Below, piece after piece: positions 10,041 through 64,000 of a stretch of 64,000 nt of DNA. The notes beneath the pieces were generated by a model. The model saw only the letters and a list, made by a program, of their open reading frames with translations, was not told the DNA's origin and did not search any database. Source of the stretch: Pholiota molesta (taxonomy: Eukaryota; Basidiomycota; Agaricomycetes; Agaricales; Strophariaceae); contig JACGCK010000079.1 in the NCBI GenBank assembly GCA_014925825.1, positions 143,029-207,028 on the forward strand. Reading direction: 5' to 3'. Position numbers and translations under genes: made by a program. The first letter of the stretch is position 1; the number at the start of each line of letters is the position of its first letter.

Positions 10041-10051
10041 ATTGTAACAAC
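10041..10051 (+). repeat. Left copy of 11 bp direct repeat (target duplication)
   Basis: ATTGTAACAAC, identical to 12125-12135, placed exactly at the left border of the dimeric element. Confidence 0.65.
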
Positions 10052-14602: not shown

Positions 14603-17600
14603 ATGACGTCCCAAGGAAACCAGAATTTTTTCGCCGACGCCAGAAACGTCGTCATTTCAGGTGGGATGTTCACCAACGTAAAATCGTCTAGTTCCACGCG
14701 AGATGTCAACGGTGAACAACTTGTTCGACATACAAATATTTCAGCTCATGTGATATTATTCACGATAGCCTTTCAACTTCTCCTGCAGAACATATCTGAA
14801 GGCGCTGTGTACAATGCTGCTGAGCGAGGCGATCCGCCTAGATGCCATCCCCAGACTCGTATGGCGATCCGTGCTGAAATCATGGAATGGGTCACAGCGC
14901 CGCGTGGGATGCGCAAACTGATCCTCTGGATGTATGGCCCAGCTGGCTCTGGCAAGACCGCGATCGCGCAAAGCATGGCGGAGGAGTGCGCACGACGCGG
15001 CCTCCTCGCTGCCTCGTTCTTTTTTTGGCGAACGGCCGCCGGGCGGAACGATGCCTCCCGCTTCGTTGCTACGATCGCATACCAACTCTCCCGATATATT
15101 CCTCAGATGGAGGAACACCTTTTGACAGCGATTGAGCGCGATCCGACAATCTTTCACCTGTCACTTTCGACTCAGATGCGCGTGCTTGTTATTGACCCTC
15201 TGAAGCTTGCAGTACCATCCTTGTCTACGGCCATGTTTGCGATCGTGGATGGAGTCGACGAATGTGGACCCGATGGACGATCCCAGTCCGAACTCTTGCA
15301 TCTGCTGGCGTCCCTCGCCTCCGAATTTCAGCATCTCCCCCTCATTTTTCTTATCTCCAGCCGTCCAGAATATGAAATCCGTGAAGTGTTCAATGGAAAT
15401 CTCTTGAACACCCTGACAAAGGTTGTGGTACTCGATAACAGCTACAAGCCTGATGAAGACATCAAGCGGTATTTCAAGTCCACATTTCGCAAAATATGCA
15501 AAGAGCATCGCCGACTGGGCCGCCATCTTCCTTTGCCATGGCCAACTGCAGGGGATGTCGATTCCCTCATATCCAAAGCATCTGGACAGTTTATCTTCGC
15601 TGCAACAGTCATGAGGTTTATCGATTCTCCTCGGCACAACCCTGCAGACCGGATGAACATTATCCTGCGGCTGTCAACTGGGGGAAACGAAACACCATTC
15701 GCCCTACTCGATGAGCTATATCACTTCGTTCTGCATTCCGTCGCTGATGTCGAAAAGGTTTTGGATATCTTGGCGTTAATTTTTCTGGACTACGAGAGCA
15801 TCGGCAACCTGAATGAGGCTGAGGAGCTGCTAGGCATTGAATTCCGAAGCACATTGATTGATATGCATTCCCTTTTGCACATTCCACCATCTTCCGATGC
15901 TGGTTTGCCGAGAGTGCCGACAGTCTATCATGCCTCACTGGAGGATTTCCTGATGGATCGATCACGATCGCGTCAGTACTATATTGGCGAAAGTGAAGGA
16001 TATCTTCGCCTTAGTCGGTACTGCTTGAAGGCCATGAAAAGGTTTTCACATTTTGAATACCTCATGCTGCAAGATGTGGTATTGTATTTTGGCCTTTATG
16101 CCAAACAATCATCTGCGAATGACAATTTAGCGAATGATTTTGCAGAGTTTGATCTGAGGGCAATATTGGAAGGAATTTCTGACTTCAAAACCGATCTATA
16201 TGACACAAATTGGCAGGGTTTTTTTGATGGTGCAAATAATCTGGTCAGTATTAACAATTTTGAATAATGCAAAGCACTGATATCCAGGCAGGTAGGATCA
16301 GATCGGCTTGATATTGTTCTCCGACTGCAGAACGACTTTGACATGTTCTTGCTCGATCGCATTGCACAATACCCTCCATTGTTCCGGACCCACTTTCCTG
16401 CTCTACTTTCTCTTCTTGATTGTGGTGGTGGTGGCTATGGTGACTTATTCCGCATATTACTTTTGGGTGCAAATAACTCGGCAGAGGAGCACATCGAGTT
16501 CCTCAATCTTGATATGAGGCTGCTGAACATCTTCGAGGCTAGCTCTCTAAATAACTATGAGACATGGAAGACATTGTTCCAAGATAAATCCAGGGCCGGA
16601 GAATGCTTCGTAGATGGCAAGAGCTATGCGGCACTGGGCAAGGCAATAGTCAGTGCCATCTATTCTGAGTATGCTGCCTTCATATACCGCATCATTGGGA
16701 GTTGATTAATTCTGTTTTCAGGCCAGGAGAAAGGAACCGTCAATTTAGGGTTGAAAAAAATGCAGACAAGCTATACGTGGAAGATGTATGCTATCCACAA
16801 ATACGAATACACTTCCGTCATACGTACAACATGTTTCATGTCATGGGCGGTGTATTCGAAAGGGCTTCGATAAACTGGGAGTTGGCCAATTTTCTGCGCG
16901 AGCGCGCCGTTCAGTACAGAGATGACGAGGAACCCATCCCAGGAAGGAGTTTCATTGCGCAAGCGAGCATAAGATATATCCAAGTAGGTGCCTCTGAAAT
17001 TCTTAAAATTCGATGGCTCTGACGAATATCTCGATTGGCATCTCTTTAGCGGTGTGGGCTCCCATTTCTGGAACATTCGCACCAGCCAGATATGAACCAA
17101 TGCGCGATTTGCGACCTCTGCGATGACGCTGTTGTCGTGGAGGATATTCCAGATATTCCAATGGAGCCGACGCCACCTCCACCGTCAATAGAGGATATCG
17201 AAGACTCATCCTCAGACTCCGAATCCAAGGCGCACAACACTAGCGACGCTCTTTCCATTGGGCGAGAGGAGGTTGTTACTCCGATTCCCTTTGCATCCCA
17301 TCTTCCTCCAATATCAGAATGGTACGAATCCACCGCCACTACATCTACACGGCCATCCACGTCCTATGCTCCATCTTGTTTAGAATTCGATGTACAGAAT
17401 TCGGTAACCATTCCTTCTGTTCAACACGAGGCATCGACTACCCGGGTCTCCTCTTCATCGACACCTCTTCCCTCAATATCGGAATGGTATCGACGCATCG
17501 ACACCTTGTCTGCGCCGCAATCGAAGCGAAAACGCGCAGATGCCTTGGCAGGTCCGACTGCAACCTATCTATTTGAAGGATTCGAAGCAGACAAGCGACG

Positions 17601-20085: not shown

Positions 20086-22442
20086 CTATTCGCCGGCCTT
20101 CTGTGGGTTCCACATATTATTTGTCCTGAACACGCGCTCGCGCAGAAAATTGTCCAAGTCCCAGTCTGTCGAAGCATTCTTGAGGGCGGCGCCCATGATC
20201 GCAAACTCTTTGTTACGTATGTATATTTGTGTTGTTGGATAGCGTCCATCTTCCACATATAGATTGGTTGAATACCTGGTTATATCATTTACAAACCTAA
20301 TTGTGTGGCTCCTTTCTCCGGACCTGAGAAATAGAATCAGTCAGCTCTCAATGGTGCGGTATAGTGTATAAAAACAGCATACTTGGAATAGATGACACCG
20401 ATTATTGCTTTGGCCAGCGCCGCATAGCTCTCGCCATCTACAAAGTAGTCTCCGGCCCTGGATTTATCTAGAAACAACGACTCGTATATCATATACGCCG
20501 ATTCCTTGATTTCATTGAAAGCCTCGAAGACGTTCAACAGCCTCTTATCAAGATTGAGGAACTCGGTGTACTCCTCTGCCGAATTACTTGTACCCAGAAG
20601 TAATATGCGGAATATGTCACCAGGAAAATCGTACCGAAGAAGACACAGTAGAACAGGAATGTGGCTCCGGAGCGATGGAGGGTATTGTGAGATACGTTCG
20701 AGCAAGAACATGTCGAAGTCGTTCTGCAATCGGAGAACAATGTCAAGCCGATCCAATCCTACCTGCCTATATATCAGTTTTTTTTTGCATTAATTAAGAT
20801 TGTTAGGACTAACCAGTTTCTTCGCACCATCAAAAAACCGCTGCCAATCTATGTTATATAGATCGTTTTTTAAGTCGGAAATTCCTTCCAATACTGCCCT
20901 CAGATCAAATTGTGCAAGATTGTGTGCTGAATCTTCACTTGCAGGTGATTGTTCTGCGTGATAGCTGAAATGCCCTACCACATTCATGAGGTGTTGAATA
21001 TGCGGAAATCCTCCGATGGTCGTCAAACAGCGCCGACTAATGCGAAGATGTCCCTCACTTCTGCCAATGTAGTACTGATGCGATCGTGATTGGTCCATCA
21101 GGAAGTCCTCAAGTGAGGCATGATGGACTGTCGGCAAATTAGCAAAGATGTCGGAGGGTGGTGGAACGCAAACAAGGGAATGCATATCGACCAATGCGCT
21201 TCGAAATTCAATGCCTAGTATCTCCTCAGCCGTATCCAGATGGTGCGAATATTTGCGGTGCAGAAAGAGGAATGTTAAAATATCCAAAACCTTTTCAATA
21301 TCAGCAATGGTATCCAGAATGGAGCGATATAATGCATCGAGTAGCGTAAATGGTGTTTCATTTCCGCTAGTTGACAGCCGCAGGACAATGTTCATCCGGT
21401 CTACAGGGTTGTACCGAGGAGAATCGATAAATTTCGTTACTGTGGCGGCGAAGATAAACTGCCCAGATGCTTTGGATACAAGGGAATGGACATCGCCTGC
21501 AGCTGGCCATGGCCAAGGGAGACGGCGGCCTAGTCGGCAATGCTCCTTGGAAATTTTGCGAAATGTGGAATCGAAATACCGTTTAATATCTTCATCTGGC
21601 TTGTAGTTGTTGTCGAGTACCAGGACTTTCTTAAGAGGGTTCAACAGGTTCTGATTAAATGCTTCGCGAATCTCGTATTCCGGACGACTGGCGATAAGAA
21701 AAATAATGGGGAGATGCTGAAGTTCGGAGGCGAGGGACGCCAGCAGATGCAAGAGTTCGGACTGGGATCGTCCATTGGGTCCACATTCGTCGACTCCATC
21801 CACGATCGCGAACATGGCCGTAGACAAGGATGGTGCTGCAAGCTTAAGAGGGTCAATTACAAGCACGCGCATTTGAGTCGAAAGTGACAGGTGAAAGATT
21901 GTCGGATCGCGCTCAATCGCTGTCAAAAGGTGTTCTTCCATCTGAGGAATATAACGGGAGAGTTGGTATGCTATTGTTGCAATGAACCGGGAGGCGTCGT
22001 TCCGCCCAGAGGCCGTACGCCAGAAAAAGAACGAGGCAGCGAGGATCTTGCGTTCTGCGCATTCCTCTGCAATGCTTTGCGCGATGGCAGTCTTTCCAGA
22101 GCCAGCCGGGCCATACATCCAGAGGATCAGTTTGCGCATCCCACGGGGCGCTGTGACCCATTCCATGATTTCAGCACGGATCGCCTCACGAGTGTGCGGA
22201 TGGCATCTAGGCGGATCGCCACGCTCAGCACCGTTGTAGACGGCGCCCATGGATATATTCCCGAGAAGAAGTTTGAAGCCTGCAGCGGAGATGATGTGTG
22301 AGCGCTAGCCATGTTATTCGTCAATCAAGAGAAGTTTACCCTCGCGCGTGGAATTGGAGGCCTGTATGTTAATAAATGTTCCACCGGAGATGGCGACGTT
22401 CCTAGCGTTGGCGAAGAACTGCTGGCTTCCATGGGATGGCAT
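20086..22442 (-). CDS. NACHT NTPase (NLR-like) gene B, shortened C-terminus
   Basis: Predicted exons (minus) 22442-22340, 22279-20814, 20762-20383 and 20323-20086, giving 728 residues in frame. Exon 1 encodes ARNVAISGGTFINI. Exon 2 has Walker A GPAGSGKT and Walker B FAIVDGVDECG and is very close to gene A. In exon 4 the conserved ANFLRERxVQYRD block is lost: after NFLRERV a short indel relative to gene A shifts the frame, and the protein ends 14 residues later at TAG (20086-20088). Similarity to gene A continues at DNA level to about 20065, in the wrong frame, and stops where the orphan exon of the opposite strand begins. The tail exon with the Cys cluster is absent. The ATPase core is intact, so the product may still act as a sensor lacking its tail, or be on the way to becoming a pseudogene. 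Confidence 0.75.
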
Positions 22443-50837: not shown

Positions 50838-51028
50838 TGTAAAGCGGCGCTTTACGGGTAGTTCTTAAGCTGTACAAACTAAGCCAGAACCAATATAATT
50901 GGTAGACTACGTGGTACAAGCAAAAGATCTACTGTCTGATTACAAATGCAAGTACTTAAATAGTGGCATCACCGAGGGTGATGCCAAACAAGATATAATA
51001 TGATGCGTCACGGGGCACGCCCGTGACA
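50838..51028 (-). repeat. Element 2 3' LTR (191 bp) with four hairpins
   Basis: TGTAAAGC...CGTGACA. Hairpins: 50839-50855 (GTAAAGC stem), 50889-50903 (ACCAAT stem), 50965-50985 (GGCATCACC stem, 9 bp) and 51007-51027 (GTCACGGG stem, 8 bp). Reads as identical to 61239-61429. Confidence 0.93.
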
Positions 51029-51030
51029 TA

Positions 51031-51039
51031 CCCCCCCTT
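51031..51039 (-). other. Polypurine tract of element 2
   Basis: AAGGGGGGG on the element strand, 2 nt from the 3' LTR, the expected site for plus-strand priming. Directly beside it at 51040-51058 is an 8 bp inverted repeat (GAGATCGC, loop TGC, reverse complement). Confidence 0.75.
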
Positions 51040-51119
51040 GAGATCGCTGCGCGATCTCTAACAAAATTTAACAAGAATATGGCAAGTCCATATGATGATG
51101 ATTGGTTGCAGGAGGACTG

Positions 51120-53075
51120 TTAGTCCTCCATGTGTGGTTGTGATGGTGGGGGTGGGTCGTCGTGGTCGTTCGCGTGGTTTTCGCCCCCATCGTCCGTGTT
51201 CTCCATGACGGCGTCCTGCGTGCCATCGAGCGTTGTATCATTCGTGTTAACGAGTGAAGATGTAGTGCTAGCAACCGCGTTAGCGGTTGCATCGTCACTG
51301 CTGCTCGTGGGCAACGCGGCAGGAGGTGGGGGCGGAGGCGGCGGTGCGATTGCGGTGTTGGTGGTAATGGCTGTTGCAGCCAGCAATCTCGCACGTAACT
51401 CCGCGACACCCGCGTCGGCGTCGTTGCGCGAGCGCCCGGATAGGTAGCGGCGATATGGTGTATCGCCTGTCAGCAGCCATCCTCGCGCGTTGAGACTAAA
51501 CACCCCTCGTTGTTCCTCGGTGTCGAGGATTATATGCATACGGAGGATCTCGTCCTCCGTTGGGTGCCTCCAGCCATCCCATGCGGGTATCGCAGGCGGG
51601 GCGCCATATTGGTCAAGTCGGTGCAGGCGCTCATTGTCCTGCTCATCCAGTAGTGCCCTATCGAGGGCCGATCCATGGTAGTGCTGGTCCAAGAATTGCA
51701 GCCCGTACAGATATGCGTGATCGACCCAATCGGTTGGGATGCAGTTATGAATGAGGACTTGGATGATGTCCTCAATCGTCATATTCGACGCATGGCGGTC
51801 GTCGATGACTAGGCGCTGGAACACGAACTGCGGGCCAGCTTGGGGGTGCATTGGTGCGCCTGGATTGTTGACGTTGTGCGCGGCAACAGCATCCGTGTAA
51901 CGGAAAGGCATTGCAGTCAGTGCGGCGTACAGCCGCATGAAGACTGATCGCGCGTGGGAGTTGGCGGGGGCCAGCATCCTTCCGAGGCCATAACCGAACA
52001 GGGAGCGACGATGGATGCGGTAGGAGTGGTCCATGACCACCCCCAGGAATGGGTTGGATGAACCTGGCCGTCCATGTAGCATGATGTATTGACCCATGAC
52101 GTCCTGGTTCAACGATTCACGGGGATCAGGTGTGGGCATGCCCGCACCTCGTGTGCTGTTGGATGGGTTGCTCACTATTGCTCGAGAGAAGTCGCGTGCT
52201 ATGGGTGCAGGTCCCATAAAGTGTGGCCCCACATCTGGTTGGTAGCTCTGGTTGAATCCAGAATCCATGAACGCGGCCATGGTGCGATCCCATAACGCTG
52301 GGTGTATGCGCCCGATGACGGTGTGGAACTCGGTTAGGAGGCAGTAGGCCTCCATACGCACCGTGTCATCCAGACGAGCGTTGGCGGCAATCGTCATGAG
52401 ACGATCGAGCTCCTCTGGATTGCGTGGGACGCCCCTTGGAACACGCGAGTAGAGGGGGTGCCCATGAACAGGGCGGTACCCTGATTGATTCTGCATCTCG
52501 AATTGAGACGCCACAGCCGCACTCTGGCCAACATACACGATGTTGGTGCGGGCCGAGTAGTAGATCCTCTGTCTCGGCCACATCCCGAGCATGGCGTTGT
52601 TACGCTCAATTGAGTTTGAGGGTGGTATCCTTACCACCCCAAGTCCGTCTGGAACACGTCCAGACATTTGTCGTTCGACTCGTCGTCTCTTCTCGGCGAG
52701 GGCTTTAGCCCTCAGCTCCTTCTCTTCCTTCACGTCGCGATTGTGCTTTCGGCGATTCCTGAGGTCCGCCTCTGATGGCCAGTTACCGCCCTGCGCGCGA
52801 GCAATGCTTTGTGGGTCTTCGTCCCACAACTCAACAGACTCATCGCTCGAGCTTTCGTCGGAGTCGCGAGGGGGCGATGCCCGCTCGATTGTTGGGTCGT
52901 TCTCGACGGCAGGCGGGGCGGGGTAGCTGGGTGGCATCGTGACGAGTGTCACTGGTCCGAATCCCCTTGGTACGAACGGGATGTACGCATCCGTGTCCAT
53001 CTTGATGTCCTCTTCGTACGCTGAGGGTGGGTCCCTCGTTTCGTATCGCGGCTGGCGCGACGACGACGCGCGCAT
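51120..53075 (-). CDS. Element 2 downstream ORF, 651 residues, function unknown
   Basis: Starts at ATG 53075 and lies between pol and the 3' LTR on the pol strand. The N-terminus is acidic and charged, followed by a basic helical stretch (RNRRKHNRDVKEEKELRAKA). Residues about 180-560 look globular (EELDRLMTIAANARLDDTVR, LLTEFHTVIGR, LYGLQFLDQHYHGSALDRAL). The C-terminus is a Pro run and an acidic Ser/Thr/Asn tail. There is no zinc knuckle, protease or transmembrane segment. Its size, conservation-like composition and position mark it as an accessory element gene, not a shadow. I do not recognise the family. Confidence 0.7.
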   Translation of the reverse strand: MRASSSRQPRYETRDPPSAYEEDIKMDTDAYIPFVPRGFGPVTLVTMPPSYPAPPAVENDPTIERASPPRDSDESSSDESVELWDEDPQSIARAQGGNWPSEADLRNRRKHNRDVKEEKELRAKALAEKRRRVERQMSGRVPDGLGVVRIPPSNSIERNNAMLGMWPRQRIYYSARTNIVYVGQSAAVASQFEMQNQSGYRPVHGHPLYSRVPRGVPRNPEELDRLMTIAANARLDDTVRMEAYCLLTEFHTVIGRIHPALWDRTMAAFMDSGFNQSYQPDVGPHFMGPAPIARDFSRAIVSNPSNSTRGAGMPTPDPRESLNQDVMGQYIMLHGRPGSSNPFLGVVMDHSYRIHRRSLFGYGLGRMLAPANSHARSVFMRLYAALTAMPFRYTDAVAAHNVNNPGAPMHPQAGPQFVFQRLVIDDRHASNMTIEDIIQVLIHNCIPTDWVDHAYLYGLQFLDQHYHGSALDRALLDEQDNERLHRLDQYGAPPAIPAWDGWRHPTEDEILRMHIILDTEEQRGVFSLNARGWLLTGDTPYRRYLSGRSRNDADAGVAELRARLLAATAITTNTAIAPPPPPPPPAALPTSSSDDATANAVASTTSSLVNTNDTTLDGTQDAVMENTDDGGENHANDHDDPPPPSQPHMED

Positions 53076-53146
53076 GTTTCGTCGCGGTTGTGAGGGTCCG
53101 GCCCTCTCTACGCGCTCGTCGTGTGGTGCTGGTGGTAGGGCATGCC

Positions 53147-53917
53147 CTACAGGTGGGTTGGGTGTTGGGTGTACGAGGACCCTCCGTCCTCGCTGGCTTG
53201 GAAGTCACGCCGTTTTGGGGGGCGTTGTTCTTCATCGCGGTCCTCTTCGGATGGCGCTTCTCGTTTGCGGCCCTTCCTGAGAGTCGCATTCGCTGTGCGG
53301 AGGTGGTCCACCTCCGCTCGGGCTGCTTCCAGGCGCAGGAGGATCTCGTTGATGAGGATGGCCGTCTCATCATCGGGCTCGTCTCCTTCTAGGGACATCG
53401 AGATCCCTGCTCTGAGTAGCCGCTCATTGAGGCGCTTGGTTGCCTCGTCCTCGTCATCCTGTGGCGCTGAGTCCACACTCCGTGCTCTCTGTTTCCCCTT
53501 GTTCTTCCTAGGGGGCGTTCTGTTGCCATTGTCCCTAGGGGGAGGGGGTTGGTCTGATTGCGTGCGCGTCAGGCTCGGGCCGGGTGCGTTTCTCGTGGGT
53601 GGAGGATGGTATCCTCCATGGTTTGGTGGTGGGGGGTGGTAGGATCCACCTGGTTGATTGTATGAGGGATGGGGTTGCCCCATCGTTGGTGGTGGTGGAT
53701 GGGATTGTCCCATCATCGGTGGTCCAGGAGGGTAGTACCCTCCAAATGGATTTTGGTATGTGGGGGCCGTTTGCTGGAAGGGGTCGGAAAAGTGGCGCTG
53801 AGCGCCCCCGTTCCCCCCCCTACCAGATCCAGCCCCGCCTCGGATCTGCTGTCCGCGGCTCCGGCCGCGTCCGCCTCGCTGTCCACGCCCTTGCTGCCAG
53901 TCGCCGCGCTGTGCCAT
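53147..53917 (-). CDS. Element 2 accessory ORF with RGG-rich N-terminus
   Basis: 256 residues from ATG 53917; the frame is open to 54037 without an earlier ATG. The N-terminal 50 residues are Arg/Gly/Gln-rich (RGGRGRSRGQQ), a composition typical of RNA-binding disordered regions. A Pro/Gly/Tyr-rich low-complexity part with MMGQSHPPPP-type repeats follows, then a charged coiled-coil-like segment (EILLRLEAARAEVDHLRTANATLRK). It begins about 150 bp after the pol stop and ends about 70 bp before the next ORF in another frame. An RNA-binding or condensate-forming accessory protein is plausible, by composition only. Confidence 0.6.
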   Translation of the reverse strand: MAQRGDWQQGRGQRGGRGRSRGQQIRGGAGSGRGGNGGAQRHFSDPFQQTAPTYQNPFGGYYPPGPPMMGQSHPPPPTMGQPHPSYNQPGGSYHPPPPNHGGYHPPPTRNAPGPSLTRTQSDQPPPPRDNGNRTPPRKNKGKQRARSVDSAPQDDEDEATKRLNERLLRAGISMSLEGDEPDDETAILINEILLRLEAARAEVDHLRTANATLRKGRKREAPSEEDRDEEQRPPKRRDFQASEDGGSSYTQHPTHL

Positions 53918-54070
53918 AGTTGGAATGAGTGGGTAGGCGATGGGGTGTGGTGGGTGGGTGTTGTATAAGGAGGGATGCAGGGCCTTGTCGATTTCGACGC
54001 GATTAAATTTTTGGAACTCCGTCCAAATCGTTCTCACGATTGCGGTCTCGTGATCGCGTGTCGGGCCGGC

Positions 54071-57000
54071 TCATGTCCGCTTAGATAGCTGCGAGGGCCG
54101 TCTAGCGCCCTGCATTTCGAGGTATCGGTCCAAGGCCTCTAGGTCCTTGCATTCGGCATGGGGTTCCCATGTAGTGTCGCCGGCACTCCATCGAATCTCA
54201 TATTCGATGTGGCCATCAGTTGTCCACCGATGGCCCAGTATATCGTCTACGAACCATTCCTGATCGTCGGCAGCGCCGAAGTCATAGGGCTCTGGCTGAG
54301 CCCTGTTAGGGAATAGCGCGTCATCGGATGGGTGGTAGGGCCTCAGTAGCGAGGCATGGAATGTAGGATTAATCCTGCGTGTTTGCAAAGCTGTAGGCAA
54401 TTGCAAAGTGTATGTCGATGTCTTGGGGTATGCCATCAATACACGATATGGTCCAATGTATTTCGGGCAGAGCTTCCGCGCTCTGCTCTTTGCTATTTTC
54501 AAATTCTTGGTCGATAAATATACCAAGTCTCCTGTTGCGAGGGCAAGTTCCTCGCCACGACGTTTATTTGAGTGATGTGTTTGTAGCGCGCGCGCTTCAA
54601 TAATCGCGTCATGCGCCTCGGCTAGGTGCTCGAGGGCAGCCTCTGCGAAGGACCTAATACCCTTCGCGACGCCCTCGTTACTTCGAATTTCGCGGATCAT
54701 GGAGGGCATGTATCCTCCATTCAGTTCGAACGGTGCATATTTCGTGGTTTCCGATATGCTCGCGTTTATCGCGAATTCGGTCATTGCCACTTTATCAACC
54801 CAGTTTTTCTGGTTTGCATGGACCAGAGTGCGGAAAATTTGTCCAACGTTCTTATTGGCACGCTCAGTCTGTCCATCAGTCTGCGGATGGAATGATGTCG
54901 ACATTAATAGGCGCGTGCCTAATATCTTATGTAGCTCACGCCACCATCGCGAAGTGAACTTCGAGTCTCGATCGCTGACGATCGTGCTTGGTAGGCCGTG
55001 TAGCCTCACGATTTCTCGTAGGTATATCCATGAAAGTTCTGATGCCGTTGTGGTTGTGTTCACTGGTATTAAGTGAACCATACTTGTCATTCGGCATATA
55101 ATTACCCAAAGGTAGTTAAATCCTTTGGATTCAGGGAATGGACCAATGAAGTCCATTCCTATCGAGTCCCAAGGTTTAGTTGGTACGGGCAGTGTGTGGA
55201 GCTTTCCAGCGGGTGGTCGTGTTGAGGTCTTCGACCTCTGACATGACTCGCACGTTCGACAGAACTCGCGCACGTCCTTGGCGATCTGTGGCCACCAATA
55301 CCATCTCCGTATGTATTCGGATGTGCGTTGTTCGCCGAAATGACCGACAACTTCGTGGGCCTGAGTGAGAACCTTGGTTATGAGTTCGCGCTCGCGTGGT
55401 ACGCACGTTACGCGGTTTTCGTTATGGTTCGTGAACCATATTATCCCATCCTTTATTTCAAAGGCGGGATGTTCTGATGGCTGGTCCATGACCAGCGAGA
55501 ACAGTTTGTCGTTGGCATATGCTGCTTTTATTTTTGTGATGAACTCGTCATCATTTGGCAGCTTTGGCGCGGGCACATTATTCCTGTTGAATAGTGCCTC
55601 TCCGAGGCTCATGTCCTCGTGGTTCGCTCCGGCAGAACTCGCGCGGGTCGCCATATCACTATCGTGATCCAAGTCATTGAGGCCCTCGGCCTCTTTCATC
55701 TCTTGCGCTTCGTGTTCGCGCTCTTCGCGCTTGTCATTCAGGCGCCTACTGCGTCGCAGTTCCCTAGCTTGCATCGCCCTCAGCTCGACTACGCGCTCCT
55801 TAATCTCTCGAGTCCGTTCAACCGGGAGATCTTCTCCTTCCGGATCAATTCTTGCGTCTGCGCGAACGTATTCATGGGGCTCGTAGACGTCGGCGCTAGT
55901 ATCGTTCTCGTAGTATCGAGATAAGCAGTCCGCCGCCTTGTTATATTCCCCTTTGATGTATGTGATGTCAAAGTCGAATCGCGACATGTAATCCGTCCAT
56001 CGGCGTTGCCGATGGGATAAGTTCACCTGTGTCTTGAAGAATTCAAGAGCTTTATGGTCTGTGATGACATGTAGGCGGTGTCCTACTAGCTTGTCCTCCC
56101 ACTTTATTAGGGATTCTAGTATGGCCAGTGTCTCGAGCTCATGTACAGCATAGTTTTGCTGGGCGCTAGTGAACTTTTTGGACATGAATCCGGCGGGTCT
56201 GCATTGTTGCCAGGATGGACCTTGTCCATACATTGCTCCAACGCCCGTTTTCGACGCATCGCATATGAGCCATATAGGCTCACCGGATTTCGGGTCGATG
56301 GGTCGTATGATCGGCGTCTTGCAGCATATTCGTTTGATCATGTCAAAGCATCGCTGATGTAGTGGTCTCCAGTGGAATGGCGCGCCATTCATTGTCATCG
56401 CGAGGAGAGGCCCGGTATAGGCAGATATATTGGGTAGGAAATTTCCTACATAGTTGACTAGCCCAACGAATCGTTGGATGTCGTTGTAATTCCGCGGTAC
56501 TCGCCATTCGCGTATGCGTGATAACTTGTCCGCGTCAGGGTGTATTCCTTGGTCGTCGATGATATGACCAAGGCAATCGATTCTTTCGGCGTATAATTCG
56601 CACTTTTTCCATTTCAAAAACAGCTGACTAGCGCGTAAGCGCTCGAATACATATTTGAGGTGTCTTTCATGTTCCTCGACACTATCTGAGAAGATGAATA
56701 TGTCATCCAGATATACGTGCATGAAGCGGCCGATGGCGTCCCTGAATATGGACGTCATTAGGCGCTGGAATGTGGCAGGGGCATTGCAGTCGCCCTGCTG
56801 TATAACGTTGCTAACGTATGTCCCAGCAATTGTTGCAAATGCCGTTTTATGTACATCTTCAGGGCGTACCCTGACTTGTTCATATGCATCGGCCAGATCG
56901 ATTTTCGATCTGATCTTTCCTCGCGCGACGTCCTCACGTATGACGTCTTGGTCGGGTAGAGGCGTAACATCCTTTACTGTGTTGTCGTTTCGTAGTCGTG

Positions 57001-58021
57001 CATCGACTACTGTACGAAGGCGTCCATCCTTCTTGGGGATGCACATAATCGGTGCGGCCTGTGCGCACGATTTGGCTTCCCACCATCCTGCGTTCACGTA
57101 TCGGTTGAGTTTTTCGTAGAACTCGTCTCGTAGTGATAGTGGGCATCGAGGCATGTGGTACGCGTACCGCTTGTTTTCCTCAATTAGATGAATTTCATGG
57201 TTTACTTCTCTGAAGGGGGGTAGAACCTCCTTGACGCCTTGTACCATATCATGAAACTCGTCATGCCATTGTTGGCGTAATCGAGGATAGTCTTCCTCGG
57301 AAAGGCCTGTCGCTTTTCCTTTTCCTTTTCTGTCCGGCTTCTTGTCCGGAGGCTGTTTCCGTTTGGGTTCATCGAATCTTGCACGCAATTTTTGAATGGA
57401 TGTGCTCCATTCGTCTACTGGTGTCTCCAGTCTGACTACTGATTGTGCATGCAGTCGTTCGCGTTCCGTGTTATCAGGGTACCAAGTCCCTGTGAATTCT
57501 TGAGTTGAGGATATTTCGTCGTCCTCTGGTGTTCGATAACACTCTCCGCGAGGTCTGAACCTCGCCCAATCATTTGTTCTCATATCTGATACCATGGCGT
57601 TCCATTCTGTCGGCATTCGTGGATCGGGCATCCACTCGAATTGTGGTGGTGGTGTCGGTCTATCCCAGAACGACTGTCGTTCTTTCGGAACTTGGTCTTC
57701 CTGGATTTCTTTGGCCAGGTTGTCCATGCGTCTTTGGTCCTCCTCATCTGTTACAAGGTCTTCGACCTTGACTCGTGATGACGTAGGTTGGCAGTATGGT
57801 ATTTCCATACTTTTTGGGACAGGTTTTGCATGTTTCTTGTGTGTTTTGTTGTGGGTTTTCTTACCCATATCGTTTTTTCTGTCCTTATCCCCCCCCTTGG
57901 GAAGAGATAAGAACTCTTCCTCACTCAGCAACATGTTTGGGTGGTCGACAGGGAGAGATGGCATTTTAAGTCCATCTCCGGCGTCCGCGATATCCTCCAC
58001 AGTCGCTTTCGGGGTAGGCAG
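54071..58021 (-). CDS. Pol of element 2: RT, RNase H, integrase, chromodomain
   Basis: About 1317 codons after the UGA at 58022-58024, in the same frame as gag-protease; the first ATG is at 57964 (MPSLPVDHPN). After a charged linker come reverse transcriptase (MCIPKKDGRLRTVVDAR, YLDD box near 57.0-56.7 kb), RNase H (CDASKTGVGAMYG), the integrase HHCC finger (HEVVGHFGEQ...CESCQ), the catalytic core (GMDFIGPFPES, VSDRDSKFTS, TDGQTERANK) and a C-terminal chromodomain (EWFVDDILGHRW...YEIRWSAGDTTWEPHAEC). The chromodomain identifies a chromovirus and would steer integration to particular histone marks. All catalytic motifs are intact. Confidence 0.95.
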   Translation of the reverse strand: MPTPKATVEDIADAGDGLKMPSLPVDHPNMLLSEEEFLSLPKGGDKDRKNDMGKKTHNKTHKKHAKPVPKSMEIPYCQPTSSRVKVEDLVTDEEDQRRMDNLAKEIQEDQVPKERQSFWDRPTPPPQFEWMPDPRMPTEWNAMVSDMRTNDWARFRPRGECYRTPEDDEISSTQEFTGTWYPDNTERERLHAQSVVRLETPVDEWSTSIQKLRARFDEPKRKQPPDKKPDRKGKGKATGLSEEDYPRLRQQWHDEFHDMVQGVKEVLPPFREVNHEIHLIEENKRYAYHMPRCPLSLRDEFYEKLNRYVNAGWWEAKSCAQAAPIMCIPKKDGRLRTVVDARLRNDNTVKDVTPLPDQDVIREDVARGKIRSKIDLADAYEQVRVRPEDVHKTAFATIAGTYVSNVIQQGDCNAPATFQRLMTSIFRDAIGRFMHVYLDDIFIFSDSVEEHERHLKYVFERLRASQLFLKWKKCELYAERIDCLGHIIDDQGIHPDADKLSRIREWRVPRNYNDIQRFVGLVNYVGNFLPNISAYTGPLLAMTMNGAPFHWRPLHQRCFDMIKRICCKTPIIRPIDPKSGEPIWLICDASKTGVGAMYGQGPSWQQCRPAGFMSKKFTSAQQNYAVHELETLAILESLIKWEDKLVGHRLHVITDHKALEFFKTQVNLSHRQRRWTDYMSRFDFDITYIKGEYNKAADCLSRYYENDTSADVYEPHEYVRADARIDPEGEDLPVERTREIKERVVELRAMQARELRRSRRLNDKREEREHEAQEMKEAEGLNDLDHDSDMATRASSAGANHEDMSLGEALFNRNNVPAPKLPNDDEFITKIKAAYANDKLFSLVMDQPSEHPAFEIKDGIIWFTNHNENRVTCVPRERELITKVLTQAHEVVGHFGEQRTSEYIRRWYWWPQIAKDVREFCRTCESCQRSKTSTRPPAGKLHTLPVPTKPWDSIGMDFIGPFPESKGFNYLWVIICRMTSMVHLIPVNTTTTASELSWIYLREIVRLHGLPSTIVSDRDSKFTSRWWRELHKILGTRLLMSTSFHPQTDGQTERANKNVGQIFRTLVHANQKNWVDKVAMTEFAINASISETTKYAPFELNGGYMPSMIREIRSNEGVAKGIRSFAEAALEHLAEAHDAIIEARALQTHHSNKRRGEELALATGDLVYLSTKNLKIAKSRARKLCPKYIGPYRVLMAYPKTSTYTLQLPTALQTRRINPTFHASLLRPYHPSDDALFPNRAQPEPYDFGAADDQEWFVDDILGHRWTTDGHIEYEIRWSAGDTTWEPHAECKDLEALDRYLEMQGARRPSQLSKRT

Positions 58022-58024
58022 TCA
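58022..58024 (-). promoter_or_regulatory. In-frame UGA between gag-protease and pol: candidate readthrough site
   Basis: The frame reads AAG GAG TGA CTG CCT ACC CCG and continues open into pol with no shift. UGA followed by CU is the leaky context known for programmed stop readthrough. No AUG lies near enough for efficient separate initiation of pol (first is 19 codons on). Confidence 0.6.
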
Positions 58025-59608
58025 CTCCTTAACTTTCTCGGAGGCTCTGTACCTCCTCAAACGACCATCTGTGTCCTTTAATTGGACGCGCGTCGCTGCC
58101 AGTGCTTTACCGTCGATAATAACTTCGTTTGTAACGAAGTTAAGGATGACCTTATGCTGTCGCATAAAAGGAGTGCCTACGATCATGTCGTAGCGATCAA
58201 AGTTAGCGATGTCGACATATATCGTCGACATTTTCCCGAAGATGTCGATGAGGACATCCGCTCCGTATTTAATCATTGATCGACTCCCGACTGTGCCTAA
58301 TTGGAGGATGTGTGGGTCTAATAGGGTGTCCACCACGATGTCTGCGACATGCGCAAACGTTGGTGTGATACCAGTTGTGGTGCTTCCTGAGTCCCAGAGG
58401 ACCCATGCATCCATGCCACCGACCTTCAAGTATGTCGCGAGACATTCTTTGTCCTCGTTGCGTACAACAGGTCGGACACGGCTATTGTTCGAGGTACGCA
58501 CGCGTACCCTCCGCATAAGGATTTCCTCCTTAGTGGCGCTTGCGTTAACCGCAGATAAGCGATCGCGGGTTGCGGGGACTGGGTCCTCATTTCTGTCGGC
58601 AGGGGATACAGTCATCGCCCGCATGAAATCTGAGGAACCCTCAGATTGGTAACCCTCGACCTCGATGTCGGTGAAGGTCTGGCCTTCATCGTGGTCTTCC
58701 GCACATGCTTCGCAGTCACTCGCGCAGCTGTCTGCGTCGTCGCCATCGTTCGCTGTCGCGTCTCCATTATCCGAGGGCGTGTCCTCGGAATGGGCTGCCC
58801 GTACATGGACCCTCTTGTTCTTTGGGGGTTGTGGGCAGTCTTTGGAGAAGTGTCCTTCACCTCCGCAGTTGAAGCATGTCAGGGTATTGCCACTGCCAGA
58901 GGCTCTGTTCCACGTTTTGTTACGTGGAGCCTCCTGGCTTGGGTTATCTTTCAGCGGCGTTTTCGTCGCGGTTGGTTGAGAGGGTCGATCCTCCCTTGGC
59001 GATGTATGATTTGCGCGTCGATGTGTTTTCTGCGAGCCCGGGCGACGGCGATCGGTCGTCGCCTCATTGGGCTTTGCGGTCGACGGCGCGGTGTGTATTC
59101 TCGCTCGGCGATTGTAATAATCATCTGTCTTGACTCGTGATTCATGTGCTATAGCGAAGGCAATGAAGTCCTCCATAGTGTGAGCTTCAGGTGATAATCC
59201 TCGCTCGCGGAGGAGCTCAGTTCGCATGTCCTTAGGTATTCCTTCAAGGAATACTTCGATGAATGAGAAATCATCGGGGTAGGCAGCCATGTTTGTGGCG
59301 AACCCAATGAGTTCGTCATAGTATGCTTGTACTCCGCGAGATGCGGAGTACTTGGCTTTCCTGAAGCCCTCGCGTGCATCCTGCATTGTCGTAGCATGGA
59401 TAAATCGGTTGTATAAAGCTATTATTACAGCTTCGAACGTCCAACCGAGTTTGGTACGACTAACACTGAGTACATGACGAATATACCACTCGTGGGCTTC
59501 CCCACCTAGGTGTTCGCCGAGTATTATTACTCGCATGCGGTCTAATTCTTTTCCTCCTAGCTGGCGCACCGCCATCTTGTAGGCTAAATCTGATAGCCAG
59601 TTTTCCAA
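58022..59608 (-). CDS. Gag-protease of element 2
   Basis: Gag core (YTGSSKFADLENWLSDLAYK, HEWYIRHVLSVSRTKLGW, AYYDELIGFA), a Pro/Arg-rich basic linker, a CFNCGGEGHFSKDC zinc knuckle (CX2CX4HX4C), an acidic spacer, and an aspartic protease with WDSGSTTT. No ATG opens this frame; the frame itself begins just after a TAA near 59655, where an upstream frame (59584 to about 59862, containing MEQRLTTLIHEALSVRIS and KFNQKLTPVK) would join by a -1 shift on an A run at about 59639. So the true start is upstream and reached by frameshifting, splicing, or is lost by mutation. The first 10-20 residues of the gag domain straddle this break. Confidence 0.85.
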   Translation of the reverse strand: MENWLSDLAYKMAVRQLGGKELDRMRVIILGEHLGGEAHEWYIRHVLSVSRTKLGWTFEAVIIALYNRFIHATTMQDAREGFRKAKYSASRGVQAYYDELIGFATNMAAYPDDFSFIEVFLEGIPKDMRTELLRERGLSPEAHTMEDFIAFAIAHESRVKTDDYYNRRARIHTAPSTAKPNEATTDRRRPGSQKTHRRANHTSPREDRPSQPTATKTPLKDNPSQEAPRNKTWNRASGSGNTLTCFNCGGEGHFSKDCPQPPKNKRVHVRAAHSEDTPSDNGDATANDGDDADSCASDCEACAEDHDEGQTFTDIEVEGYQSEGSSDFMRAMTVSPADRNEDPVPATRDRLSAVNASATKEEILMRRVRVRTSNNSRVRPVVRNEDKECLATYLKVGGMDAWVLWDSGSTTTGITPTFAHVADIVVDTLLDPHILQLGTVGSRSMIKYGADVLIDIFGKMSTIYVDIANFDRYDMIVGTPFMRQHKVILNFVTNEVIIDGKALAATRVQLKDTDGRLRRYRASEKVKE

Positions 59609-59881
59609 GTCAGCGAACTTGGATGAACCGGTGTATTTTTCACCGGTGTCAGTTTCTGATTAAATTTGACACCATCAGGATAAGATATCCTGACGCTAAG
59701 AGCTTCATGAATCAGTGTAGTGAGCCGTTGCTCCATGATGGATCGGTGACGATCCGAAGCTTCAACTACGCCAGGGGCGTCGTGGCGAGGTCCGAGCGAC
59801 CTCGGTGTTGAGTATCCTCGACTAAAATGTCGATTGGTTGCGGGAGCGGTGCCGAGGTCCAAGACCTCGCTGTCTCTTGGC

Positions 59882-61138
59882 TCAAGCTGAACCGTACTGC
59901 TGACTTTGGGGTATGGTCCCGTGGGCCATACTTCCGTCGTTCCTCACGATATTCGTCGCGTCGTTCTTCGCGGTAGTTATCACGTCGTTCTTCGCGATAT
60001 CGTCGCGTCGTTCTTCACGGTAGTTATCACGTCGTTCTTCGCGATAGTCGTCGCGTCGGTCAGGACTGATTATCCTTTCCGGGAGGTCGTTGACCTCCTC
60101 GAATTTAACCTGTGTCGGTGCATCATTTCCTAATGATTCTCCTGGATAATCCAGGTCGTATGCGTTTGGTCCTCGTAACTCGACGCCCTGGTCATCGATT
60201 AACGATTCACCAGTTCTATTAATGTCGTCTCGCCTGAGGCGTTGGTAGGCGACTCTGTCCTTCCAATTCATAGCCCTCGGCGTTCTTACGGTAACGTTTG
60301 GGTACGTTACCCGATTATCCGTGTTGGGGGCTTCGCCCACATTGTTGGTTGCGGTATATAATGGTACCGCGCTCGTCTCGCGAGCTTGTAGGCGGTTAGA
60401 CGCAGCGCGTCGTCTCTGGTACTGTTCGTTCGTTTCGTCCCATCGTCGTGGTTCGTCGAGACCCGCCCTTGCCATTTCCAACGTGGGGGATGAGTGCGTA
60501 AATGGTTCTCCGACCATTTGTGATGCCGTGGGAGGGGACGTGGTCGTTGACCCTCCTCGATGTGTCAGTGTTGGTACCACTGATGGTGTTTGGATCAAGA
60601 CGGGGGACATTGGTGTGGATGCCCTTGAACTCCTCTTGTCGTTTCGAATCAATTCGTATCGCTTCGCGATACGTGTCAAGGTCACGATGATTAGAGATAT
60701 CCATCTCTCTGATCCCTCAGGTATATGTTGACCTGAGTGGTGTATAGCTTGTATGACGTACTGCGTCGCCATTGCTCGCAGTACTTGTCGTCGATCATCT
60801 CGATCGACGTTGTGTATATTCCATACAAGCTCGATCTGGTCTTCAAGACCATTCGTTAGTCTGGCGAGATCGACGCCATCGTCGATATCGTGCGATCGTT
60901 GACCGATCGCCTCAGATCCCTCGGTTGATGTCCGAGGTTGTGGCTGCCTGATATCTCTCATCAGGAAAGAGCCACGATCGCTCTCTGCGCCCACAGCTGA
61001 GAGCTGCGATGCGGTGCCTGCAGGACGAGTCCTGCTGGGCGACGTTGTGGTAGTACCCACGTACTCCGGTGTTGCTGGCACTGGAGTGCGTGGGTCCTCG
61101 GAGTTCCCACCTGTTGACAGGTGGTCACCTTCTGCCAT
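59882..61138 (-). CDS. Upstream ORF of element 2, 418 residues
   Basis: Starts at ATG 61138, 100 bp inside the 5' LTR, preceded by a hairpin-rich leader. The protein is polar and mostly disordered, with a small globular-looking part (DQIELVWNIHNVDRDDRRQV, ERWISLIIVTLTRIAKRYEL). Near the C-terminus a tandem repeat of about 48 bp codes for YREERRD units (about 59.95-60.06 kb); one copy lacks a C present in its neighbour, which shifts the frame so that the end reads IAKNDVITTAKND. It may be the N-terminal part of Gag separated by that deletion and by the break before 59608. Function otherwise unknown. Confidence 0.55.
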   Translation of the reverse strand: MAEGDHLSTGGNSEDPRTPVPATPEYVGTTTTSPSRTRPAGTASQLSAVGAESDRGSFLMRDIRQPQPRTSTEGSEAIGQRSHDIDDGVDLARLTNGLEDQIELVWNIHNVDRDDRRQVLRAMATQYVIQAIHHSGQHIPEGSERWISLIIVTLTRIAKRYELIRNDKRSSRASTPMSPVLIQTPSVVPTLTHRGGSTTTSPPTASQMVGEPFTHSSPTLEMARAGLDEPRRWDETNEQYQRRRAASNRLQARETSAVPLYTATNNVGEAPNTDNRVTYPNVTVRTPRAMNWKDRVAYQRLRRDDINRTGESLIDDQGVELRGPNAYDLDYPGESLGNDAPTQVKFEEVNDLPERIISPDRRDDYREERRDNYREERRDDIAKNDVITTAKNDATNIVRNDGSMAHGTIPQSQQYGSA

Positions 61139-61238
61139 TCTGTTACGTGAAATTTTCACGGGGTGTGTTCAAGAATAGATCTTGATTTTCCTTCGGTAAG
61201 GAAGGGTCTTTCCAAGTTATTTGGAAGGCTTAAAAAAG

Positions 61239-61429
61239 TGTAAAGCGGCGCTTTACGGGTAGTTCTTAAGCTGTACAAACTAAGCCAGAACCAATATAAT
61301 TGGTAGACTACGTGGTACAAGCAAAAGATCTACTGTCTGATTACAAATGCAAGTACTTAAATAGTGGCATCACCGAGGGTGATGCCAAACAAGATATAAT
61401 ATGATGCGTCACGGGGCACGCCCGTGACA
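61239..61429 (-). repeat. Element 2 5' LTR (191 bp)
   Basis: Reads as identical to 50838-51028, including the four hairpins. The leader inside it (61160-61238) adds three more: CAAGA/TCTTG, TTCCTT/AAGGAA and TTCCAA/TTGGAA. Confidence 0.93.
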
Positions 61430-62431
61430 AGATGGAATTGAATCTACAGGCTCCTCAGCCGTCATTCATGTCTACTTCCACATCATCACCTCAAGCACAG
61501 GTGCTGGTCAACTCTCGTAAGTCTATCAATATGATTGATATGCGCAACACTGACATTCTCTCATAAAAACTCACTCTTGAACGTCAGGCTCACTGATGTC
61601 CACAACCAAATCCAAGTCATTAATTCGGATTATGCATCCACGGGGATTTCTTTCAATCTGAAGAGCATCACGACGACGGTTAATGACGATTGGTTTACAA
61701 ACTGTGGACCGGGAACGTCAGATTCTTTCTAGATTGAATTGTCGCATTCTCAACTCATAATCCACCCATAGTTCTCAGAACACTGCAATGAAGCAAGCCC
61801 TTCGAAAGGGTGGTGCCGGAGATCTCAACGTATTTACTGTCAGGTATCCAGATTTCCCCGCATACTTGGTTCGCTTCCCAGGCTGACAACACCTCGTTCA
61901 GCTTCACAGGCTCATTTGCCGGGCTGCTCGGTTATTCTACCTTCCCAATTACAGTTGCAGGCAACATGGCAGATGATGGTGTCGTCATCCTCTATAGCAC
62001 TCTCCCCGGGGGCAGAACAGCACCTTACAACCTGGGCGAACGCTGACCCATGAATCGGACATTGGCACGGTCTCTATCACACTTTTCAGGTAAGTACCAG
62101 ATTTTCACCTCTATTGATGCGATGACTGAGTGGCCGGGTATCTGGCTAGGGTGGATGCTCGGGTGACGGAGATTATGTTTCGGACACGCCTGCAGAAGCC
62201 AGTCCCGCTAGCGGATGCCCCCAATCTCGCGACACATGTTCAGGCCCCGGAACTGATCCATTCCGTGAGCTGTCTCTCTGCTAGCACATACAAGCTCGTT
62301 GACTTATGGAACCTCTATCAGATAATTATATGGACTATGCAAACGACTCCTGTATGACCAATTTTACGCCTCTTCAAGCCACTCGCATGAAGTCACAGCT
62401 TACGACATATAGAGGCATCAATTTTTCATGA
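61430..62431 (+). pseudogene. M43-type secreted metalloprotease, disrupted
   Basis: Exon pieces of a fungal M43 (pappalysin-like) peptidase follow in order: SSAVIHVYFHIITSSTGAG with a GTAAGT donor; IQVINSDYASTGISFNLKSI and DDWFTNCGPGT; AMKQALRKGGAGDLNVFTV; GLLGYSTFPITVAGN, DDGVVILYSTLPGG, APYNLG; then [18 protein letters not shown] and NYMDYANDSCMTNFTP to a TGA at 62429-62431. The zinc site that should read HEVGHW is broken: one G is missing after CATGAA, giving HESDIGT. Further stops interrupt the exon with the Met-turn region. The 5' part is cut off by element 2. Family members are secreted zinc endopeptidases; this copy should be inactive. Confidence 0.75.
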
Positions 62432-62725
62432 GATCATTTCAGTACATGTCGAGACGTAGCATGGACCAAAAGTGTCGGATTTTCTTGTTGGTTGGACTAG
62501 AACCGCATCGACAACAATGCAAAATGATAACCACTTGCTAAACGGCTGAACTATCTACATAAATATGGTAATAAACACGGAAGGATCGACCTCCAGAGTC
62601 TCTAGAACAGTACGTCGGCGTGCTAAAGGAATTGAAAGAAGTTTGCCTAGGTCCGGGAATAGTTTGCAAGATGAGCATAGCCAAACTGGACAATACACTG
62701 ATGCTTGAAATCAGTACAAAGTGGT
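62432..62725. other. Convergent intergenic, no gene seen
   Basis: Short A/T-richer spacer between the ends of the M43 remnant (plus) and the GH16-like gene (minus). Confidence 0.5.
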
Positions 62726-64000
62726 TTAATTACACCCGTTAGCTGATAGGCTGTTCTTGGGCCATGGCTGCCCGAAATCCGACCAGACCGTCAAGTTAGG
62801 GTTTGTGTAAGCTTCCATGTAGCTGTGTTATTGCAATAGTTAGTATATAATGTATCGTCAAGCACGATATCGAGCACGTACGTGTTGATGTAATCCTTGG
62901 TAGGGAATCCGTCTGGGCTGCAGCCGACGTTGATTTGGTCTTCCGCTGATACACACGGATGTAATCAACCAGCATTGTTACCGGGAATTTGAGGTTGGTA
63001 GTGTCAATTGTACCGAAGCTTTCAGAGATGCCAAGATTAGTGATGAGATACTAAAAGATGCAATATGTCAATAGATATTCTAAGAGGTATCGACAACGAA
63101 ATTACCATTGGCTCTTGTGGAATTGAACGGCGACCAATCTCAACGGAGCTATCTGCCACCAACGCTGATGAATAAAGCGTCCAAGCCCGGACCTCGTTGA
63201 TCCAAGTGATATAAGCATTATCAAATGGAGAAGAAATTAAATCATATAGATAGTAAGATTTAGTGGTGCCATTTACCCGGGTTGATATTCGAAACCATAC
63301 AGCGCGAAGCACGTTCCGGGTATCTCGTAGCAATCTGGGTTTGTCAGTCCCAATCCACTTGCCGTTTGTTGGTAGCGACCTGACAAAACGATTAGTAACA
63401 TGGGCACGAAGTAAATAGATGGTACACACTTCCTCGATATGGGTTCAAGACAGTCCTCTCAGGATCGTCGAATGCCGTGGTAGTGTTGTCCTTCACGATT
63501 GAATACTTCGCCTGTATAATTAAGTTAGACCGACATCTGTCCTTCATGCATATTTAGTATTGCGCACGTTGAATGGGGCAAATTGAGCAGACAAAGAGAC
63601 CTGAGAAAAGATTAGTTCGAATCCATAGAAAAATACGAGAATTAGCCCTACATATCCTATGCCATCTGTCACAGTTGCTTCAAGAGCATCGATTTCGGGG
63701 CTGCACGGCCAACATATGTTCCGTCCGATTTCATGGGCCAGGGTGCGATTCTCCAGGACAAGTACAAGCGGCTGAAGAAAGTCAGTGGTACCCTCGACTT
63801 GGTTCAGGTAAGAGCGCATACATAACCGCTGGCCTGCAAGGTATGACTGGTATGAATTAGCGATCCAAATATTGAATCAATCTACTGCATAGTTCCTCAC
63901 TAGATAGCCATTTGCTTTAGGATCACCGCCCTCAGTAGCTGCGATAGGAGTGGCCGAATTAGGGTACGTTTGGTTGGGCAGTGTCCCCACATCGCAGCTG
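62726..64000 (-). CDS. SKN1/KRE6-like GH16 protein (beta-glucan synthesis), 3' part, frame damaged
   Basis: The 5' part lies beyond the right edge. Recognisable pieces in order: CDVGTLPNQTYPNSATP at the edge; GQRLSACTCPGESHPGP across a 50 nt intron; GTYVGRAAP and the GH16 active-site segment EIDALEATVTDG; SAQFAPFN; DPERTVLNPYRG; RYQQTASGLGLTNPDCYE; YGFEYQPG; AYITWINEVRAWTLYSSAL; RSIPQEPM; TNLGISESFG; FPVTMLVDYIRVYQ; DGFPTKDYINTY; EAYTNPNLTVWSDFGQPWP, with a TAA at 62726-62728. Members are Golgi/ER membrane proteins for beta-1,6-glucan and cell wall assembly. Two single-base C losses lie around GTYVGRAAP, both in C runs, and the join to GQRL is off by one base. That means either a decaying gene or homopolymer errors in the assembly. 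Confidence 0.75.

Follow-up and report, generated by a model that had tools for sequence, protein, structure and literature searches.

The 64,000 nucleotides analyzed here, called the window throughout, come from the basidiomycete Pholiota molesta (contig JACGCK010000079.1, positions 143,029 to 207,028 of the forward strand) and contain a long terminal repeat (LTR) retrotransposon that is saturated with short hairpins. As judged from the sequence comparisons described below, this is probably a recently multiplied Ty3/gypsy element of the chromovirus type, whose nucleic acid is under a weak, hairpin-by-hairpin selection for local folding along its whole length. In the comparisons, the amount of folding is seen to be maintained, the positions of the hairpins are largely free, and their stems remain short. 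The benefit could lie in the shielding or compaction of single-stranded intermediates, which may be the genomic RNA and/or the complementary DNA (cDNA). The shielding might be directed against recognition by the host, for example by RNA silencing, or against pairing with other strands, and the stems would be kept too short to serve as a double-stranded RNA substrate.

With hairpins defined as perfect Watson-Crick stems of at least 6 bp that enclose a loop of 0-10 bases, the element contains 128 hairpins in 10.6 kb (12.1 per kb), compared with 120 in the remaining 53.4 kb of the window (2.2 per kb), a density ratio of 5.4. At the resolution of 2-kb bins, the excess begins and ends with the element boundaries: hairpin counts are 15, 19, 24, 20, 23 and 27 for the six bins between 50001 and 62000, where dinucleotide shuffles give 3.3-4.8. 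They range from 1 to 12 for the remaining 26 bins, and the bin 62001-64000 just outside the element holds 2. An earlier reading of this DNA, made from the letters alone and referred to as the sequence-only reading, had listed 24 of these hairpins, and all 24 are present with at least the stem length given there; those at 53299, 56033, 58121 and 60141 are longer by 1-2 pairs, and the one at 58210 is shifted by one base. The same reading placed the element at 51029 to 61238, which becomes 50838 to 61429 when the LTRs are included. It was right that the hairpins run through coding and non-coding parts, as they are found in all five open reading frames (ORFs), in the LTR and in the spacers.

All five ORFs lie above their synonymous-codon shuffles (100 per ORF), with z values of 5.1 to 13.0 for stems of 6 bp or more (counts in Table 1), and hairpins are packed still more closely in the non-coding DNA, where one LTR and three spacers together have 14 in 634 bp. 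The sequence-only reading had not noticed the trait in element 1 or in the host genes. This agrees with four host ORFs, which stay at the level of their synonymous shuffles for the same stem length (3 vs 3.3, 4 vs 3.0, 5 vs 3.3 and 6 vs 3.7). Element 1, the other element distinguished in the window, has 16 such hairpins in its ORF (3241-8835) vs 12.5 in the shuffles (z 1.1), and it exceeds the shuffles for stems of 7 bp or more only, where 10 are found vs 3.6, the highest count among 100 shuffles being 8. By this latter count, element 1 is not entirely without the hairpin trait. The density comparison that had been proposed, with codon shuffles and with element 1, gives the higher value for the hairpin-saturated element in both cases.

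The stems of the element measure 6-10 bp, mostly 6-8 bp, and 10 bp is the maximum. When seven sequences are pooled, stems of 7 bp or more are enriched 10- to 18-fold at loops of 3-6 bases, and the enrichment scatters near 1-fold (0-3) at loops of 14-40 bases. As the optimum lies at 3-6 bases and no clear excess is seen at 14-40, the geometry of the hairpin matters. For the distances between successive hairpins, the coefficient of variation is 1.00, which corresponds to random placement and is the expectation if the amount of folding alone matters. The 191-bp LTR has 4 hairpins, and the LTR of the related locus L009 holds counterparts of all 4, one of them with a compensated pair and one with an outer pair lost. 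Among the three-base loops of nine pooled loci (n=75), the closing pair is C-G in 30 cases and G-C in 8, as if hairpin stability were selected.

The folding was also assessed by the minimum folding energy difference (MFED), which is the folding energy excess over dinucleotide shuffles, in 350-nt windows with 10 shuffles each. Over 10.6 kb, the MFED of the window element amounts to 17.8% in sense and 14.1% in antisense orientation. Its nine relatives reach sense values of 7.7-13.3%, with sense/antisense values of 13.3/11.4 for L009, 11.3/12.4 for L011, 10.5/10.5 for L014, 8.7/8.7 for L012, 7.7/8.7 for L015, 8.1/6.2 for the core of L019 and 10.4-11.9/10.2-10.8 for L027-L029. Corresponding values are -1.0 (sense) and -1.8 (antisense) for element 1, -2.0 to 3.9 for four of six copia elements, and -0.7 to 1.6 for host DNA, represented by one gene and a stretch of 10 kb. 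Folding thus characterizes a group of Ty3 families, in which the window element has the most extreme value measured.

Copies and relatives were searched in the genome of the fungus itself (65.6 Mb in 625 contigs), so that all comparisons of DNA stay within one fungal genome and copy counts are lower bounds; no DNA relatives in other genomes were found in viral_contigs or genome_contigs. There are at least eight uninterrupted copies with 99-100% identity over pol, including the window copy, plus one more that is split into two pieces. At least 16 other loci, or 17 if a separate piece is counted, show 67-86% identity to the element. Hairpin densities over pol are 11.1-11.7 per kb in the eight copies of the window type, 8.1 in the interrupted copy L026, and 10.3-11.8 in L009, L010 and L025, which are 84-86% identical. 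They decrease to 7.0 in L011, 8.0 in L014, 5.3-6.5 in L012, L013, L015-L018, L020 and L024, 4.5 in L023, 3.5 in L021, 3.3 in L022 and 0.6 in L019, all to be compared with 1.5-2.6 per kb in shuffles; the densities of L014, L021-L023 and L026 were computed on stretches that contain insertions or DNA without a match. Three more distant Ty3 families with 39-41% amino-acid identity have 5.2-6.2 hairpins per kb (z 3.9-5.5), and z values are -0.9 to 1.1 for six copia elements and -0.3 and 0.1 for two host CCT genes. Related Ty3/gypsy families hence possess the trait to differing degrees, and the sampled copia and host sequences are without it.

Selection on the stems can be recognized from the substitutions between related copies, which were compared with a matched null. 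For this null, each observed substitution is reassigned randomly to a site that has the same base and the same codon position (400 draws). Between the element and L009 together with L025 (82% identical; 1601 differences at 9092 aligned sites), 41 of 101 hairpins are perfect, in comparison with 7.8 in the null, a number that none of the 400 draws reaches, and the stems show 133 changes where 245 are expected, which is 0.54 of the null rate. In the comparison with L010, 17 of 42 hairpins are perfect vs 2.5, with 49 stem changes vs 113. With a null matched by base only, the five comparisons of the window clade give 127 perfect hairpins vs 22.0 at a stem rate of 0.51, and the six comparisons of the L011 clade give 72 vs 15.6 at 0.55; these clade sums count both directions of each pair and are hence not independent. 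The conservation of stems between related copies that the sequence-only reading had asked for is therefore found at 82% identity and is largely lost at about 73%, where 4 of 44 hairpins of the element are kept in L011 (null 0.6) with 156 stem changes vs 168, and in the opposite direction 5 of 28 are kept (null 0.4) with 87 vs 105. Since the stem changes between the element and L011 are close to the null, stem sites are not slow in general; positions turn over, and a small shared remainder is left.

A standard population-genetic relation links the rate of loss to the scaled strength of selection. From a loss ratio of 0.35, it gives a scaled strength of about 1.8 and a 6.2-fold enrichment, to be compared with the observed density ratio of 5.4; three other comparisons give enrichments of 7.1, 7.8 and 9.5, so that one selection strength roughly fits both the hairpin density and the retention. 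A lower mutability of paired bases was considered and rejected, as the stem rate of about 0.54 would yield only an approximately 2-fold excess at balance instead of the 5.4-fold excess. Taken at the level of sequence, these data support selection for what appears to be a highly folded genome.

Several observations weigh against this interpretation. Other families, compared at 72-80% identity (alignments with L028 left out), show weak conservation of their stems: from L015 to L023, 2 of 14 and 0 of 5 hairpins are perfect vs 0.7 and 0.1, with 29 and 14 stem changes vs 37 and 17; from L015 to L019 it is 2 of 21 vs 0.5, with 64 changes vs 75, and from L027 to L029 1 of 20 vs 0.3, with 57 vs 73. 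For L028 and L029, two of the more distant Ty3 families, the hairpin excess is confined to 6-bp stems, as stems of 7 bp or more are found 3 times vs 1.9 and once vs 2.3. L019, L021 and L022 are near-identical copies, yet they have few perfect hairpins in the pol core, with 2 in the 3.1-kb core of L019 and 7 vs 5.7 in a wider stretch; as these copies have multiplied in this state, perfect hairpins are not needed to multiply. Their use as hairpin-free relatives was dropped, given the MFED of the L019 core and 7 perfect 7-bp stems vs 2.0 over the whole L019 locus, and given a DNA transposon nested in L021 and L022, whose own hairpins have to be disregarded. Finally, compensatory stem substitutions, for which the sequence-only reading had proposed a test, do not rise above the null, with 30 vs 28.0 and 18 vs 27.7 compensated double changes. 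Compensation as a proof of structure was discarded: 5 Watson-Crick double changes in pol exceed a uniform-rate expectation, but the codon-position null already gives 2.4, and the 12 double changes of the whole element vs 9.2 in the null are not used as evidence.

With respect to origins without selection for folding, it is hardly credible that composition, codon use or conserved motifs of the proteins have produced the hairpins incidentally. Hairpins arising by chance in these coding sequences are already G-rich in their 5' arms, as would suit such an origin, but both dinucleotide and synonymous shuffles remain far under the observed counts, by which codon use and dinucleotides are rejected as the cause, and the hairpin density is higher in non-coding than in coding parts. 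A mutational origin has more to it: a reverse transcriptase that switches template within quasi-palindromes would perfect them and yield Watson-Crick perfection whatever the mismatch type, as is seen here. Quasi-palindrome correction is described for yeast DNA (PMC3820800), and a template-switch origin is proposed for hairpins of RNA genes (PMC8794818); in the process as outlined in both papers, a stem mutation is reverted or copied onto the other arm. Such hairpins resemble those of the element in their perfect reverse-complement arms and in the loss of mismatches of any type, and the G-rich 5' arms of the element recall the asymmetry of G-C over C-G that a section of PMC8794818 discusses. 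As switching reverts or compensates mutations, we infer that it should leave stems changing at the full rate with frequent compensated pairs. Instead, stem sites change at 0.51-0.55 of the null and compensated doubles are not in excess. In 15 of the 18 hairpins of the element and L009 that have more than one differing stem site, both arms have changed rather than one arm having been copied, and across seven near-identical copies stem substitutions both break and complete hairpins. Between the element and L009, 16 of 38 and 19 of 42 hairpins are broken in the other copy, with 1-4 differing stem sites. The stem differences fall on third codon positions in 30 of 33 and 36 of 46 cases, as do 401 of all 486 differences, and are hence neutral with regard to template switching. 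Recurrent template switching, the second cause put forward by the sequence-only reading, is thus disfavored, and we consider it improbable.

The stems had further been described as unrelated in sequence. No single motif or inserted palindromic family is present, in agreement with that description, but the 5' arms in sense orientation share a bias, being enriched in G at pairs two to four when counted from the loop (GAGG, ATGG). Chance hairpins of synonymous-shuffled sequences have a weaker form of the bias, which is therefore partly an effect of the coding sequence, and a single motif or inserted family as explanation was abandoned, since there is only a bias that the coding null partly reproduces. 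Dispersed hairpins for packaging or protein binding, with GAGG or ATGG in the 5' arm and about 7 bases between GG and CC as the common motif, would make use of such a pattern, and the element encodes a CCHC zinc knuckle. It contains 14 GAGG-N7-CCTC sites vs 0.2 expected and 21 AGG-N7-CCT sites vs 1.4, L009 has 7 of the GAGG form vs 0.2, and ATGG-N7-CCAT occurs 14 times vs 0.9 in L011, L014 and L012 together. Against this stand the small share of GAGG-N7-CCTC sites among the 128 hairpins, the similar though weaker bias in the shuffled sequences, the absence of both words from the top 22 listed for L015 and L023, and the random placement, so that we regard dispersed binding sites as very unlikely.

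If selection for local folding is accepted as the probable explanation, it has to be asked which molecule is folded. The sequence-only reading had proposed selection for a folded genomic RNA. Its selection part agrees with the stem conservation, the joint fit of density and retention and the folding excess, but the folded molecule may or may not be the genomic RNA, as the G-U tolerance to be expected of an RNA is absent. Were the sense RNA folded, stems with G-U should far outnumber stems with other mismatches. This is not so, and the result also counts against the part of our interpretation that concerns RNA: in eight pooled sequences perfect stems are enriched 14- to 18-fold, those with one internal G-U 2.3- to 3.0-fold, those with one A-C 2.8- to 6.2-fold, and those with other mismatches 1.3- to 5.4-fold. 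Likewise, relative to the null, substitutions to G-U are kept at 0.34 and those to A-C at 0.52 in the window clade, and at 0.61 and 0.56 in the L011 clade. A stricter count of near-hairpins in five sequences gives 19 with G-U vs 8.0 (2.4-fold) and 70 with A-C vs 10.9 (6.4-fold). An A-C mismatch on the sense strand is a G-T wobble on the minus strand. A reading as antisense or cDNA folding from this A-C excess was set aside, as the substitution test in the L011 clade does not confirm it.

It is possible, although we would not expect it, that selection acts on DNA, or on the two strands alike, and requires perfect Watson-Crick arms in single-stranded cDNA or simultaneously in sense and antisense RNA, so that wobble pairs would be of no help. 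G-U fares no better than other mismatches, near-hairpins favor A-C as just described, and the folding excess is similar in sense and antisense orientation and equal in L014 and L012. In the three ORFs compared, the excess over synonymous shuffles is also larger with DNA than with RNA energy parameters, with z values for pol of -15.2 (sense) and -12.2 (antisense) for DNA and -12.5 and -9.1 for RNA. On the other hand, G-U is not less tolerated than A-C in the L011 clade, and the sense MFED lies above the antisense MFED in the window element; in most relatives the two values differ little or not at all. A folding that is free of wobble pairs and nearly symmetric between the strands would, if it holds up, point to the cDNA or to both strands.

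In animal and plant RNA viruses, the self-folding of whole genomes has been a matter of discussion. Known as genome-scale ordered RNA structure (GORS), it occurs, for example, in coronaviruses and hepatitis C virus, according to parts of PMC7642675 and PMC3950689. By analogy, the element can be said to carry a GORS-like trait, and apart from the wobble test its pattern would be that of GORS in RNA viruses: the MFED of the entire element exceeds 3% on both strands, many short stem-loops of limited duplex length are present, paired sites are less variable, and positions are poorly conserved between distant relatives, as seen at about 73% identity. The MFED of 15% that a portion of PMC7642675 gives for SARS-CoV-2 is of the same order, although the methods differ in detail. 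As in these viruses, folding is found in some families and not in others, and pairing partners and positions are poorly conserved. The description of GORS further includes persistence in the host, a reduced innate recognition and a compact RNA that probes do not reach. Unlike them, the element is a fungal LTR retrotransposon that replicates via cDNA, and it has a 5.4-fold density of perfect Watson-Crick stems; G-U tolerance is not visible and the antisense excess is nearly as high as the sense excess, which are both stated for this element alone. Tentatively, strict Watson-Crick self-complementarity, effective in the minus-strand cDNA or in the two strands together, might represent a DNA-level or double-strand counterpart of GORS that keeps the replication intermediate folded, with a strength that differs between sister families. 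In the literature searched, which covered few subscription papers, no report of genome-wide hairpin selection in LTR retrotransposons was found. A GORS-like folding in LTR retrotransposons, with families of low and high degree in one genome, would provide a natural comparison set for studying the purpose of the folding.

The organization of the element is given in Table 1. Its LTRs begin with TG and end with CA, and no target-site duplication is seen beside them, as the flanks of 50838 and 61429 differ (GGATC vs AGATG). In pol, RVT_1, RT_RNaseH, Integrase_H2C2, rve and SH3_Tf2-1 match above the Pfam cut-offs, in the order reverse transcriptase (RT), RNase H and integrase that is typical for Ty3/gypsy chromoviruses, and the C-terminal chromodomain (PF00385) reaches 20.1 bits, which is under the curated 25.1. 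Among 1394 protein relatives of pol, the best 120 reach 79% identity, and the organisms named among these 120 are the basidiomycetes Agrocybe, Mycena, Phanerochaete, Phlebia and Trametes. The element shares with Ty3/gypsy chromoviruses of basidiomycetes the RT, the RNase H, the H2C2 integrase, a putative chromodomain with a weak match, the CCHC knuckle and the TG...CA LTRs, and it differs from typical members by two ORFs downstream of pol and by the hairpin saturation. To our knowledge, ORFs downstream of pol are unusual in these elements. The seven homologues of the 651-aa ORF were obtained among 8000 candidates scored, and one of them, with 865 aa, is 100% identical.

Table 1. Parts of the Ty3/gypsy element and example hairpins in window coordinates; hairpin counts of ORFs are followed by the mean of synonymous shuffles.
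Feature	Position	Strand	Remarks
Whole hairpin-saturated Ty3/gypsy element	50838..61429	-	128 hairpins, stem 6+, loop 0-10
3' LTR (sense orientation), 191 bp	50838..51028	-	identical to other LTR; 4 hairpins
5' LTR (sense orientation), 191 bp	61239..61429	-	100% identical to 50838-51028
First ORF, 425 aa	59882..61159	-	without Pfam match; hairpins 20 vs 3.2
gag/protease ORF	58022..59608	-	CCHC zinc knuckle; protease match just under cut-off; hairpins 16 vs 3.6
pol ORF	54071..58000	-	RT, RNase H, integrase, weak chromodomain; hairpins 44 vs 8.7
ORF downstream of pol, 296 aa	53147..54037	-	without Pfam match; hairpins 10 vs 2.8
ORF downstream of pol, 651 aa	51120..53075	-	without Pfam match; 7 homologues; hairpins 17 vs 5.5
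Example hairpin	53297..53317	.	10-bp stem, 1-base loop
Example hairpin	58120..58142	.	10-bp stem, 3-base loop
Example hairpin in pol	55135..55159	.	9-bp stem, 7-base loop; no stem change in L009

Some further observations concern the copies and the remainder of the window. The near-identical copies L002-L008 differ largely by one-base insertions or deletions, frequently within homopolymers, a pattern that resembles errors of assembly or of the reads. In L006, 11 bp are inserted that duplicate a part of the neighboring sequence. The DNA transposon nested in pol of L021 (2445-3345) and L022 is a non-autonomous element of about 0.9 kb with terminal inverted repeats, which is itself hairpin-rich; L019 is without it, and L021 and L022 are otherwise about 99% identical to L019. 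A related insert with 81% identity is located at another site in L023. In the window, 12 hairpins vs an expectation of 6.1 were counted in the AT-rich region 9832-12000, which adjoins element 1 and contains direct repeats that are 92-94% alike. The ORFs at 14516-16267 and 20790-22250 are of the NACHT / NPHP3_N type, and stretches of the latter recur elsewhere in the window at 61-83% identity.

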